In this document: positions 1 through 34,546 of the stretch, one piece after another
How positions within the stretch are numbered: position 1 is the stretch's first letter
Layout: every line of letters begins with the position of its first letter
Virus record (IMG/VR): IMGVR_UViG_3300035698_029558
Coordinates: 1-36,821 of that record
Strand: one strand, 5' to 3'
Origin: a virus
Length of the DNA: 36,821 nucleotides
Position numbers and translations under genes: made by a program
The notes under the pieces: generated by a model
Database searches by the model: none
What the model saw: the letters and a program-made list of their open reading frames with translations, nothing else
Told to the model about the DNA's origin: nothing

Positions 1-774
1 ATGTTGCGTCAAGGCGCCGGGCTTACCACTCTTCAGACGCTGTTCGACCAGCTAGATCTGTCTTGTAAGCAGCTCGGAAAGCTGATCATAGGTTTTATTC
101 AAGCAAACTTTTCTCCAGGAAAGATTAAGAGAATTCTTGGTGAAGAGCCGAGCCCGAGATTTGCCGACAAAGCTTTTGGTAAGTATGACTGTCAGATTGA
201 AGAGGGTGTTCTTACTACAACACAGCGACAGATGCAGTTTACTCAGCTTATGTATCTTAAGGAGAGCGGCTTAAGTATTCCTGACAGCGTGATAATCGCC
301 GCTGCAACCCTTCAAAACAAGAAAGACTTAACAGATGCTCTTGAAGCACAGAACGAGCAAGCAGCAGAACAGCAACAGATGCAAGAGCAGCAGCAGATGC
401 AGTCCCAGCAGGTGCTGTCAGAAACGCTCCTTGCTAAAGCCAACTCCGACAATGCCTTAGCAGCAGAAAGAATGAATAAGATACAACTAGATGAGGCGTT
501 GAGTTTAGAGCGTATAGCGAATGCTCAGTCAGATAGAGATGCTGCAACCCTCTCTAGGGTAAAAGCAGCAAAAGAGCTATCTGAGATGGATCTGAATCAA
601 CTCATGAAATCAATTAGCATCATCAAGATGCTTCAGGAGGATCAAAATAAAGAGTCCGAAGAAAAAGTATCCTCTAGGAAAAGTGTCCTCCCGGCCCAAG
701 GAAAACTGGCCGCGGGACTCGATCAAGCTGAAGAATTCGGGCAAGTTGAAGAAAATGGCTTTGACGGGCTATAA
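1..774 (+). CDS. Portal protein, C-terminal part (continues from 35381-36694 across the circular join)
   Basis: This is the last 257 codons of the portal gene that begins at 35381. The ATG at position 1 is an internal methionine, not a start: bases 1-127 recur at 36695-36821 in the same frame as the portal. Joined, the protein is 695 aa, close to the roughly 725 aa of P22-type portals. This part holds the end of the crown/stem region followed by a glutamine-rich, probably helical stretch (window residues about 117-140, repeated QQQM units) and an alpha-helical coiled C-terminus, which resembles the helical barrel of P22 portals. Portals form the dodecameric ring at the capsid vertex through which DNA is packaged and ejected. 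Confidence 0.9.
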   Translation: MLRQGAGLTTLQTLFDQLDLSCKQLGKLIIGFIQANFSPGKIKRILGEEPSPRFADKAFGKYDCQIEEGVLTTTQRQMQFTQLMYLKESGLSIPDSVIIAAATLQNKKDLTDALEAQNEQAAEQQQMQEQQQMQSQQVLSETLLAKANSDNALAAERMNKIQLDEALSLERIANAQSDRDAATLSRVKAAKELSEMDLNQLMKSISIIKMLQEDQNKESEEKVSSRKSVLPAQGKLAAGLDQAEEFGQVEENGFDGL

Positions 775-8141: not shown

Positions 8142-8783
8142 TTAGGTTGCTAGAGTTGTTCTTAAGGCAATGTTCCACGCATCGTTAGTGATCCGCTCTG
8201 CTTGCGCAAATTTGAACCCTGCAGACTGTCTTTGGAGAAGAGGGTCATCCCCGTATCCAAGAGGTCTGTAGATAAATTGTGCGTTTGCATCTTCGAGATC
8301 AATACATGCGTAAGACTCTTCCCCGGTTATAAAAGCGTTGTAGTAGTCGTTTCCTAGCAGCGATCCGTTGGCTACCATAGAGCCTTGGGACGATGTCAAG
8401 AATCGAATATTTCCAACTGAACCCCATTCAGCACTCAAAATGTTTCCTTGGAAAGGATACTGAGCAACTGATATAAAGCCGTTCACTGCTTCCAGATCAT
8501 TAATTAGATCTGTATGCATCATTGCAAAGTAGGCTTCACGGACAGGTCCGGTTCCGAACTTGTCGGCTCCCTGAATTACTCCAGAGACCTTTCTTGCATC
8601 AGCACCAACAAGAGTACGAGTAACGATGTCTAAGTCGTTCCTTGTCATCTCTGTTGGCACATCACCATTGACACCAGCTACGCAGTTAAGCACAGAAGCT
8701 GTGGCTTGCAGCATATTTCGTGTCAAAGCATCTTCGGTTTCTCGAAGACACTGGCTTAACAAAGAAGCCGTTTCATTTAATAC
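8142..8783 (-). CDS. Major capsid protein, exon 3 (C-terminal 213 residues)
   Basis: The third exon of the N4-gp56-type major capsid gene, entered after intron 2. It begins VLNETASLLSQCLRETEDAL, directly continuing the INEDP that ends exon 2, as in uninterrupted members of the family (INEDP-VLNEA-). The rest carries family landmarks: CVAGVNGD, KFGTGPVREAYFAM, FISVAQYP, EWGSVGNIRFL, and a C-terminal AWNIALRTTLAT. An in-frame ATG within the exon has no plausible ribosome binding site. The spliced protein (88+16+213) is 317 aa, a complete family length. Confidence 0.88.
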   Translation of the reverse strand, partial: VLNETASLLSQCLRETEDALTRNMLQATASVLNCVAGVNGDVPTEMTRNDLDIVTRTLVGADARKVSGVIQGADKFGTGPVREAYFAMMHTDLINDLEAVNGFISVAQYPFQGNILSAEWGSVGNIRFLTSSQGSMVANGSLLGNDYYNAFITGEESYACIDLEDANAQFIYRPLGYGDDPLLQRQSAGFKFAQAERITNDAWNIALRTTLAT

Positions 8784-9563
8784 CTACCTGTTACTTTTAT
8801 GACCTACACTGCTGTAGGCGGGAAAACCGCTTCGGATTCTCCTCTCCAGCTTTACACCGGAGCCCCGACTGTCGCACATCCCATCCCTGGGATCCCTTTC
8901 GCTCAGTCTGTCACGGTGACTAAGACTTTCCATAAACAAGAGTTCTTCTTATTATAGGAGTGTCATTTACAGGAGGCTTTTTATGGCAATTGATGATTTG
9001 ACCGAAACCGAATGCGCTTATATAGCCGGATACGTCGATGGAGACGGAGGATTTTATTCCTACTGCCTCCCCTACGTCTCGAAAAAGACGGGTAAAAACC
9101 TGTTTACATTTCAAAACTATATAAGGTTTTCTTCCACGGATCTTTGCGCTATCGAATGGGTTGGAGAGAAAGTCGGCTTTACAGCGTATTATCAGCAAAA
9201 ACCGGTAAAGGGGAGACCTTACGAAAGAATCGTTTACAATCTTCAAATTACCGGGAAAAAGCTCGATGCGCTGATCGTTAGACTTATCCCCTACCTTATC
9301 ATCAAAAAACAAAATGCCATTCTCGTTATGAAAATTAGAGAAACTTATCAAATTAAGTATGGAAGTCAGGGCGTTCCTCAGCATATCACCGACAAACGAC
9401 AAGAACTTCACAAACAACTTAGACAAATTACTTCTAGGTTTCATAACCATCCTATAAAAAAATCTTAATCTTCCGCCCTGTCGCCATATTATGCAGCTTC
9501 CTGCACAACGTAGGCTTCCAAGTCAATCAGAAAAGGTTTATAGACCCCGCGAAATCTTGGTTT
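8784..9563 (-). ncRNA. Group I intron 2 of the capsid gene, carrying a homing endonuclease gene
   Basis: A 780 nt interruption defined by capsid protein continuity. P1 is a perfect 7 bp pairing of exon 2 end AGACCCC with GGGGTCT 15 bases into the intron. P7 is visible as GACTG (in ACAGACTGAGCG) with CAGTC (in GCGACAGTCGG); a P8-like hairpin ATCCC/GGGAT lies between, and P3 can form from CCTTTT with GAAAGG. The intron ends in G before exon 3. The P9-side block (plus-strand 8820-8846) matches 25 of 27 bases of intron 1 (9645-9671). The endonuclease ORF, antisense, sits between the 5' P1-P6 side and the P7-P9 side. P4-P6 are less clear than in intron 1. Confidence 0.82.
8983..9468 (+). CDS. LAGLIDADG homing endonuclease inside capsid intron 2 (antisense)
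   Basis: A 161 aa protein with one LAGLIDADG helix at about residues 12-23 (YIAGYVDGDGGF), the dimer interface and catalytic motif, so it probably acts as a homodimer cutting intron-less capsid alleles to spread the intron. The length suits a single-motif enzyme. The start has a strong AGGAGG 6 bases upstream. It is encoded opposite to the capsid transcript, so it needs its own promoter and cannot be translated from capsid mRNA; I see no convincing promoter. The residues following the motif (lysine- and aromatic-rich beta segments) are typical of the DNA-binding saddle. Confidence 0.9.
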   Translation: MAIDDLTETECAYIAGYVDGDGGFYSYCLPYVSKKTGKNLFTFQNYIRFSSTDLCAIEWVGEKVGFTAYYQQKPVKGRPYERIVYNLQITGKKLDALIVRLIPYLIIKKQNAILVMKIRETYQIKYGSQGVPQHITDKRQELHKQLRQITSRFHNHPIKKS

Positions 9564-9611
9564 GGGGTCTTCGTTTATCAGTGTTACCTGATCTGTAATC
9601 GCAACGTATGT
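9564..9611 (-). CDS. Major capsid protein, exon 2 (16 codons)
   Basis: Exactly 48 bases encode TYVAITDQVTLINEDP, which bridges exon 1 (ending DIDAQIQWYG) and exon 3 (beginning VLNE) as in intact N4-gp56 capsid proteins. Both junctions fall between codons. Without splicing, translation would continue 24 codons into intron 2 and stop at a TAA (plus-strand 9489-9491). This is a very short exon between two self-splicing introns. Confidence 0.85.
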
Positions 9612-9941
9612 CATTCTTGTTACTCCCCACACTCTCGTGTGAGTGGGAAAACCTCTTCGGGTTCTCCTCTCATAGTCTCCCATGAGATCAGACTATATCT
9701 TTCCTTTCGAATCCGAAAGGGCCCGGCGTATAGTCGTTGAGGATTTTTGATCCTGGCTTTCCTTTAGAGTTATAAGCCAATTTCAAATCTTTCCTGCTGA
9801 TTGCCCATTGTTACATCCTTATGATTTTCACTCTTCTATAAGCCATATAGAAAAAGTACACAAGGCTTTAGGGGTTTCCAGCATATAGCCAAGTTTTATA
9901 ACGGCAATCTATGCAGCCTCCTGCATTGGTTCTACGTTTTT
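9612..9941 (-). ncRNA. Group I intron 1 of the capsid gene (no ORF)
   Basis: A 330 nt group I intron with a complete visible core on the minus strand. P1: exon ACGGU with guide GCCGU, a U.G wobble at the splice site. P3: GGCTATA with TATACGCC. P/Q elements for P4: GCTGGAAACCCC and AATCAGCAGGAAAG. R/S elements for P7: TCAACGACTATACG and AAGATATAGTC. P8 is a perfect 7 bp hairpin (CCTTTCG / CGAAAGG). The intron ends with the expected terminal G before ACATACG. The P1 loop contains a 6 bp stem-loop (ATGCAG / CTGCAT) that recurs in similar form in intron 2. There is no ORF, so mobility would depend on another endonuclease. Confidence 0.92.
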
Positions 9942-10205
9942 ACCGTACCACTGAATCTGTGCATCTATATCAAGCGCACTTAGTTGCTGCGCAGGAGGGG
10001 TAACTCCGGCAGGTCCTAGAGGAGCTGTAGCCAAGTTTAGTCGGCTGTAGCGTCTCATGCGGATGATGTTACCGTTTCTGGACGACAAGCTCTTTTTCAT
10101 TGCGAACTTGCTGTGGATCAGATACGGCATTGGCCTTGACAAAAGCTTCATGTCAAAGGCTTGTTGCACAGGAGGTGGTAATTGGGCTGTGGTTGTTAAT
10201 CCCAT
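9942..10205 (-). CDS. Major capsid protein, exon 1 (N-terminal 88 residues; N4-gp56 family)
   Basis: This exon encodes the N-terminus of the HK97-fold major capsid protein that forms the icosahedral shell. Family landmarks are TTTAQLPPPVQQAFDMKLL, MPYLIHSKFA, the arginine-rich IRMRRYSRL and GVTPPAQQLSALDIDA. The ATG has an upstream AAAGG-type ribosome binding site and lies 37 bases after the scaffold stop. The exon ends at GGT (Gly88). Unspliced readthrough would add ten residues (KNVEPMQEAA) and stop. Exons: 10205-9942, 9611-9564, 8783-8142, giving 317 aa. Confidence 0.9.
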
Positions 10206-32955: not shown

Positions 32956-33201
32956 ATGGACGAAAATAGCACTATACTAATGTATGAAGACGATAGTTTT
33001 GTTGTTATTTCTAGTCAATTGCTCTTCACGTTGCACATCAAAAGAGAGCACACGGGCGACTTCGTTGTAAATACTCCTAGACTCCGGGATGCTGGCATAT
33101 GTTATAACAAAATATTAACAACAAACGACAAAGAATGTTTATACGAGTGTCTGAACATTTATGATGTCTGTATGGATGAATTTTTAGACTATGCAGGATG
33201 A
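32956..33201 (+). CDS. Small hypothetical protein upstream of terminase
   Basis: An 81 aa acidic protein I do not recognise (SFVVISSQLLFTLHIKREHT; a cysteine cluster CLYECLNIYDVC at about 61-72). AAAGGAA is the ribosome binding site. It overlaps the terminase start by 11 bases, suggesting coupling. It is unlikely to be a small terminase (no DNA-binding helix pattern), though its place would suit one. Confidence 0.55.
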   Translation: MDENSTILMYEDDSFVVISSQLLFTLHIKREHTGDFVVNTPRLRDAGICYNKILTTNDKECLYECLNIYDVCMDEFLDYAG

Positions 33202-34546
33202 ATTAAAAGAGATCCGGCTCCCAATCAAATTTCGTAAGTATCAGACCCCTCTTTTCGAGGCAATGGAGACCAAAAAACGTGCCATCATTGTCTACCACCG
33301 ACGAGCCGGCAAAGACATTACTTGCTGGAACATCATGCTCATCAAAGCTCTTACGCAGAGAAAGGGCGCCTATTACTATGTCTTCCCATCATTTAGACAA
33401 GCAAGGAAGGCCATTTGGGAGGCGATTGATAATGATGGTCGCAGGTTTCTAGACTACATACCTCGTGAGCTCATGGTATCGAAACCAAACAGCTCTGAGA
33501 TGAAGATCGAGCTAAAAAGCGGCAGCATTATTCGTCTTTTGGGCTCCGACGATTTCGATTCCATACGGGGGACAAATCCTGTAGGCGTAGTATTCTCAGA
33601 ATTTGCCTACCAAAAGCCCGAAATTTGGTATCAAATTGTCGAGCCCGCTTTGCGAATCAATGGTGGGTGGGCAATCTTCAACTCAACACCATATGGCAAG
33701 AATCATTTCTATAAGATGTATATGTATGCCAAACAGCGCGAAGAGGAGTGGTACCATCAGCTAGCTACCGTTGATGATACAGGTATTGTTGAAGCCAAAG
33801 AGCTTGACTCTCTGCGCGAACAGGGGGTCTCTGAAGAAGCCATAAGTCAGGAATATTTTTGTTCTTTTGATAGAGGGGTGGAGGGGTCCTACTACGGAAG
33901 AAGTCTTAAGAAGATACGAGACAGGGAACAGATATGTAAGGTATATCATGACGAATATGCCTCCGTACATACAGCCTGGGATATAGGAATAGGCGATTCT
34001 ACCGCCATTTGGTGGTTCCAGATCATAAAACATGAGATACATTTCATAGATCATTATGAGGCATCTGGCGAAGGTTTAGCACATTACGCCAGAATTCTTG
34101 ATGAAAAGGCTAAAAAGAACGGATACAGATATGGAGAGCACTACGCGCCCCACGATATCAGACAACGAGAGCTCGGTACCGGCGTAACCAGGCTTCAAAT
34201 AGCGCAGGATGCCGGAATTAACTTTGTGGTTCTCCCGATAAAACCGATAGACACCGGCATTGAGCTTGCCAGGCGCCTTCTTATGAAGACGTTCTTTGAC
34301 GAAAAAAGGTGTAAAAAGGGACTGGAAGCCATCGAATCATATCAAAAAAGATGGGATGAAAAACATAGAGTCTACGGAGACCATCCGCTTCATAACTGGT
34401 GCTCACACAGTGCTGATGCAATAAGATATGCCTTTACCGCCATTGAAGACCATCTGCTTAGAGACTCGACCATTCTAACGCCTGAAAAGCTTCAGGAATT
34501 GCGAAAACAAGCAAAAAACGAGGGAGGGCTGCCCTTCCCATTTTAA
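33191..34546 (+). CDS. Terminase large subunit
   Basis: A 451 aa packaging motor with complete motifs. The ATPase has Walker A YHRRAGKD (35-42), a form typical of this terminase branch, Walker B VGVVFSEFA (131-139, catalytic E137; the usual preceding aspartate is serine) and the coupling motif FNSTPYGK (163-170). The nuclease (RNase H-like) has D264 in AWDIGIGDST, D322 in YAPHD and D409 in HSADAIRYA. It uses ATP to drive DNA into the procapsid through the portal and cuts the concatemer. It overlaps the upstream gene by 11 bases. The length is normal for the family. Confidence 0.92.
   Translation: MQDELKEIRLPIKFRKYQTPLFEAMETKKRAIIVYHRRAGKDITCWNIMLIKALTQRKGAYYYVFPSFRQARKAIWEAIDNDGRRFLDYIPRELMVSKPNSSEMKIELKSGSIIRLLGSDDFDSIRGTNPVGVVFSEFAYQKPEIWYQIVEPALRINGGWAIFNSTPYGKNHFYKMYMYAKQREEEWYHQLATVDDTGIVEAKELDSLREQGVSEEAISQEYFCSFDRGVEGSYYGRSLKKIRDREQICKVYHDEYASVHTAWDIGIGDSTAIWWFQIIKHEIHFIDHYEASGEGLAHYARILDEKAKKNGYRYGEHYAPHDIRQRELGTGVTRLQIAQDAGINFVVLPIKPIDTGIELARRLLMKTFFDEKRCKKGLEAIESYQKRWDEKHRVYGDHPLHNWCSHSADAIRYAFTAIEDHLLRDSTILTPEKLQELRKQAKNEGGLPFPF

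Follow-up and report, generated by a model that had tools for sequence, protein, structure and literature searches.

Two putative group I introns in the major capsid gene of a metagenomic phage and candidate mini-introns in its relatives

Phage capsid genes are already known to contain group I introns, even several in one gene. In mycobacteriophage LittleE, a member of Cluster J, the capsid gene contains a probable group I intron, and its splicing was demonstrated by reverse transcription-polymerase chain reaction and protein sequencing (PMC3706429). In the crAss-like Delta and Zeta phages the capsid gene lies in five pieces, and three of the four gaps code for group I intron domains (PMC7886860). 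Two group I introns in a single gene are also reported from phage Twort, but in the ribonucleotide reductase gene rather than a capsid gene (Landthaler 2002, as cited in PMC3984707). Here we analyse IMG/VR record IMGVR_UViG_3300035698_029558, a metagenome assembly of 36,821 nucleotides (nt) whose whole length is called the window, and its N4-gp56-type major capsid gene, which lies on the minus strand and is divided into three exons by two interruptions, intron 1 and intron 2 (Table 1). With a probability of about 0.92, on the evidence of the sequence, both are group I introns that would excise themselves from the late capsid messenger RNA (mRNA), intron 2 being mobile through an endonuclease encoded on its opposite strand. 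The pair adds one more case to those already described; the new element is a set of very short inserts, here called mini-introns, which relatives carry where the window has intron 1. Like intron 2, the LittleE intron carries an opposite-strand LAGLIDADG frame, but it is a single intron with no tandem partner, in another capsid type and phage group (PMC3706429). The crAss-like phages resemble the present family in being dense in introns and differ from the window in their large genomes (145-192 kb in Zeta) and capsid family; their introns were detected through endonuclease domains, so that introns free of reading frames, such as intron 1, would escape (PMC7886860).

Table 1. Positions of the exons, introns and associated elements of the capsid gene in the window
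Feature	Positions	Strand	Remarks
Capsid exon 1	9942..10205	-	264 nt, 88 codons; ends ...WYG, final five nt ACGGU
Intron 1, group I	9612..9941	-	330 nt; without notable reading frame; terminal G (ends AATG)
Intron 1 guide GCCGU	9901..9905	-	P1 with ACGGU at exon 1 end; U-G at splice site
Intron 1 P7	9691..9735	-	GACUA 9735-9731 with UAGUC 9695-9691
Capsid exon 2	9564..9611	-	48 nt, 16 codons TYVAITDQVTLINEDP
Intron 2, group I	8784..9563	-	780 nt; interrupted by antisense endonuclease gene; terminal G
Intron 2 guide GGGGUCU	9542..9548	-	7-bp P1 with AGACCCC at exon 2 end; C-G at splice site
Intron 2 P7	8867..8908	-	GACUG 8908-8904 with CAGUC 8871-8867; P8 in between
LAGLIDADG homing endonuclease gene	8983..9468	+	161 amino acids; opposite strand within intron 2; intact frame
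Endonuclease ribosome-binding site	8971..8976	+	sequence AGGAGG
Capsid exon 3	8142..8783	-	642 nt, 214 codons including stop; starts VLNETASLL

Removal of 9941-9612 and 9563-8784 joins the three exons (264+48+642 nt) into a stop-free product of 317 amino acids. This product scores 182.2 bits against TIGR04387 (cut-off 60), which identifies it as the N4-gp56 major capsid protein that the original prediction had named; it also matches PHROG 1357 at 7e-34, and its Pfam Phage_capsid_4 score lies slightly below the cut-off. The predicted borders were recovered exactly, as introns of 330 and 780 nt, when four uninterrupted relatives collected from IMG/VR were used as queries in a purpose-written spliced aligner, whose default setting favours U before the 5' splice site and G at the intron end. 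With this splice-site bonus switched off, each intron is displaced by a single base, the alternative cut being synonymous; thus the last base of intron 1 rests only on the rule of U before and G at the end of the intron, and that of intron 2 on analogy with the relatives. Junction calls based on tblastn were replaced by the spliced aligner, as they misplaced introns wherever a mini-intron was present. Both interruptions contain stops in the exon frame, and therefore each intron must splice if capsid is to be made, as had been proposed.

Two covariance models bear on the class of these introns. Intron 1 matches Rfam Intron_gpI (RF00028) at 70 bits, above the gathering score of 50, and has the P3-P8 core, its P7 being flanked by conserved sequence. 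Rfam gave no match to intron 2 even at E=5, and none of its other intron classes matched either interruption. We also built a family model, R1, from an alignment (A2) of the 3' halves of 32 introns found in relatives, with the window sequence excluded and a hand-drawn structure of P7, P8, P9, P9.1 and P9.2. In A2, 91.2% of the helix cells are paired, 21 pairs have changed on both sides, and covariation is 0.575 versus 0.183 after shuffling and at most 0.11 when the structure is slid; drawing the structure on the sequences that it scores introduces some bias in its favour, but the margin is large. Across the whole window R1 makes exactly two matches, the 3' halves of intron 2 (8923-8781, 93.9 bits, E=1.1e-21) and intron 1 (9750-9610, 52.3 bits, E=2.5e-11), each ending 2-3 nt beyond the predicted 3' splice site. 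A covariance search, suggested by the original prediction as a check, thus succeeds for both introns with the family model and for intron 1 alone with Rfam. The P7 elements that it had placed in both interruptions are present (Table 1), and intron 2 has P7, P8 and P9 with conserved flanks; comparison of the 5' halves (P3-P6) was visual, and P4-P6 of intron 2 was recognised in this way only.

In relatives, U before and G at the end of the intron are permitted at 84 of 89 well-placed junctions even when the bonus is switched off, where 13 would be expected, and guides fit their own exons better than the exons of other sites (P1, 6.94 versus 4.95 nt; P10, 3.00 versus 0.74). A terminal G, which the aligner favours, is present in all 211 distinct full-size introns. 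In intron 1 the U at the exon end pairs with G of the guide, and the intron ends in G. The borders, the reading frame, the guide pairings, the conserved core helices, the family of the endonuclease and the presence in relatives of homologous introns at the two sites can all be read directly from these data. In the cell, the guide near the intron start would pair with the end of the upstream exon to form P1, a guanosine would attack at the 5' splice site, and the freed exon would then attack just past the terminal G of the intron; splicing by this route is what we expect for both introns.

Several points weigh against this reading. The 5' splice site of intron 2 is C-G rather than U-G. This C is unique to the window intron, since U precedes the other 210 of the 211 distinct full-size introns, including all remaining introns aligned to site 104; it could make splicing less efficient, or it could be an error in the sequence. 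The two window introns have short P10 helices, of 1 and 2 pairs. The sequence comes from a metagenome assembly, and the closest capsid match among cultured phages shows only about 31% identity or less, while a search of genome_contigs found no relatives of this protein. Splicing of both introns is moreover deduced from DNA.

The most serious alternative is that a U-to-C change crippled intron 2, or that the C is a sequencing error, so that the window records a splicing-poor or lethal variant. The near-universal U is the argument for it, but no other element of intron 2 is damaged, and its endonuclease gene keeps an open frame of 161 amino acids. In 1995 Hur and Waring reportedly described naturally occurring group I introns whose 5' splice site has a C-G pair, and since the U rule has known exceptions, intron 2 is kept as a group I intron on the basis of its core. 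Its site is an intron position in about 25 relatives. GACCCU, with Pro104, is found here in most relatives, so that the window differs synonymously. We consider this alternative unlikely and expect the C-G site to be used efficiently. Much less probable is a pseudogene or an assembly chimera in which the inserts are junk amid decayed fragments. Chimera-like structures do occur in such assemblies: in L013/L108 1-1200 (relatives are designated by L and a number) two partial capsid copies are linked via near-identical introns, through either assembly or intron recombination. The exons of the window, however, are free of frameshifts and stops, the insertion sites are shared with relatives from other samples, L323 has the same pair, and of the eight codons of exon 2 that differ between L323 and the window, six do so synonymously and two by replacement. 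Ribosomal bypass or removal as an intein, group II intron or bulge-helix-bulge element, for which we found no supporting point, is scarcely credible given the exon-frame stops in both inserts, the group I models that match with correct ends and the lack of a match to any other Rfam intron class.

Intron 2 contains, on the plus strand, an endonuclease gene that the original prediction did not mention (8983-9468). Its product aligns with I-MsoI over residues 6-123 (E=3e-11), carries the motif AGYVDGDGGF and belongs to the LAGLIDADG family, although Pfam LAGLIDADG_3 gives 15.4 bits, under the cut-off of 22.5. An HNH name from PHROG annotation was dropped because the sequence is that of a LAGLIDADG enzyme. 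I-MsoI and I-CreI, the closest known enzymes, originate from algal organelle introns, whereas the present gene belongs to a phage and runs antisense to its intron. In relatives, about 20 introns at sites 99-104, including the site of intron 2, and many at site 97 harbour homologues in antisense orientation, and the few sense-oriented ones are found only at sites 12, 13 and 104. The enzyme is predicted to cleave intron-less capsid genes: a cut at the Pro104-Val105 junction, repaired by copying the intron in, would make intron 2 a homing element. Intron 1, without an endonuclease, is probably kept by maintenance or moved by others.

The original prediction regarded two closely spaced introns in a capsid gene as unusual, which is only partly right, because capsid introns are documented and close spacing is common in this family. 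Among 47 full-length genes drawn by capsid motif irrespective of introns, a sample with a few near-duplicate loci, 25 are interrupted. The 80 best-scoring relatives were not used for this frequency, as ranking by score favours uninterrupted genes. Over all loci we count 211 distinct introns at 59 positions of site and phase, with up to five per gene, numbers per gene being inflated by loci that were collected by intron motif. The nearest relative, L323 (68% amino acid identity), shares both window sites, with introns of 232 and 224 nt, and has two further introns; L126 (67.5%) has none at either window site and two elsewhere; the capsid genes of L134 and L135 are intron-free. Since exons between full introns are as short as 22 nt in relatives, the 16-codon exon of the window is unexceptional. 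The same intron motif also occurs beyond the family, in genes identified by eye as other capsid-type genes and ribonucleotide reductase, 73 of its 131 occurrences being in this capsid family. An essential, highly expressed gene with introns at 59 positions and guides fitted to their exons offers material on how group I introns gain new sites, and as most family introns escape Rfam, such capsid genes will appear broken in annotations. As a separate observation, three relatives (L023, L093 and L046) have frame-breaking inserts of 4-5 nt (TAATG, TATG) after Arg118, at the intron site of L258 and L295.

At the YG|TY junction (site 88/89), where the window has a full-size intron (330 nt) that is not of the core-less kind, relatives, and only relatives, often carry inserts of 28-40 nt in 38 distinct forms (for example, L008 4216-4244). 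These mini-introns always start after the U of GGU and end in G, and all 38 forms break the frame or contain a stop. They are too short for P3-P9, but they retain P10 as well as P1, which covaries in L107 and L077. In 38 of 38 forms the wobble base of the Thr89 codon is matched by the third pair of P10 (C-G 21, U-A 7, A-U 6, G-C 4), compared with a mean of 14.3 and a maximum of 24 in 2000 shuffles. The commonest form has GUAAYAG, a motif also found near the 3' end of full introns. Independent mini-introns elsewhere, at site 81 in L032 (38 nt) and site 87 in L089 (39 nt), each have a fitted P10 of 4 bp and a fitted P1, of 8 bp in L032 and 7 bp in L089. A pattern for the mini-introns lacking the AGTT extension was discarded, as its matches arose mostly by chance.

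Nearly all mini-introns have a full-size neighbour. A full intron inserted behind the second base of codon 97, 26 nt downstream, is present in 39 of the 41 genes that span the region and bear a mini-intron at site 88, versus 4 of 163 mini-free genes (Fisher, 8e-35); in the remaining two, full introns lie at 105 and 117. The full introns next to mini-introns possess the P7-P9 half. The site-97 introns of mini-bearing genes (such as L008, L107 and L262) also have a conserved P1-loop sequence in common, roughly GATCTTTGAAATTTCTTGGTTTTGTAAGCAGAT, which is missing from short introns of 195-199 nt. Linkage of mini-intron and neighbour could by itself stem from joint homing: L007 278-1696 and L008 3952-5197 are near-identical alleles without and with the mini-intron and intron 97, and their exons differ at 20 of 957 positions, mostly near the insert, a co-conversion-like tract as expected from homing.

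Removal of the mini-introns is needed for capsid, and since P10 covaries we take it to be of the group I type. Sharing of the neighbour's core would be the simplest mechanism. From these patterns we lean, with some reserve, towards the view that mini-introns supply a P1/P10 guide and a terminal G and may be excised by the core of the neighbouring full intron, so that one ribozyme would remove two introns per mRNA, with close pairs of full introns, like the pair in the window, as the ancestral state. L120, with full introns of 217 and 252 nt at the same two sites, 26 nt apart, is a possible ancestor of this arrangement. A possible pairing between the conserved mini-intron motif AACAGUUUA and the 5' region of the next intron, compared by eye, lacked consistent covariation. 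Bypass by the ribosome was rejected for the mini-introns, as there is no landing codon matching the take-off GGU and all three lengths modulo 3 are present. Mini-introns are undescribed in the literature searched, which comprised open-licence papers, and we know of no description of a non-autonomous group I form living off a neighbour's core. If this proposal is true, a group I intron can be reduced to a guide of 28 nt that depends on the catalytic core of a neighbour, and mini-introns would provide a small model for the origin of shared splicing machinery.

Outside the capsid region, positions 1-774 (+) of the window encode the C-terminus of a P22-like portal protein and 33191-34546 (+) the terminase large subunit. 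The record, of 36.8 kb, probably represents an almost complete genome opened between these two genes.
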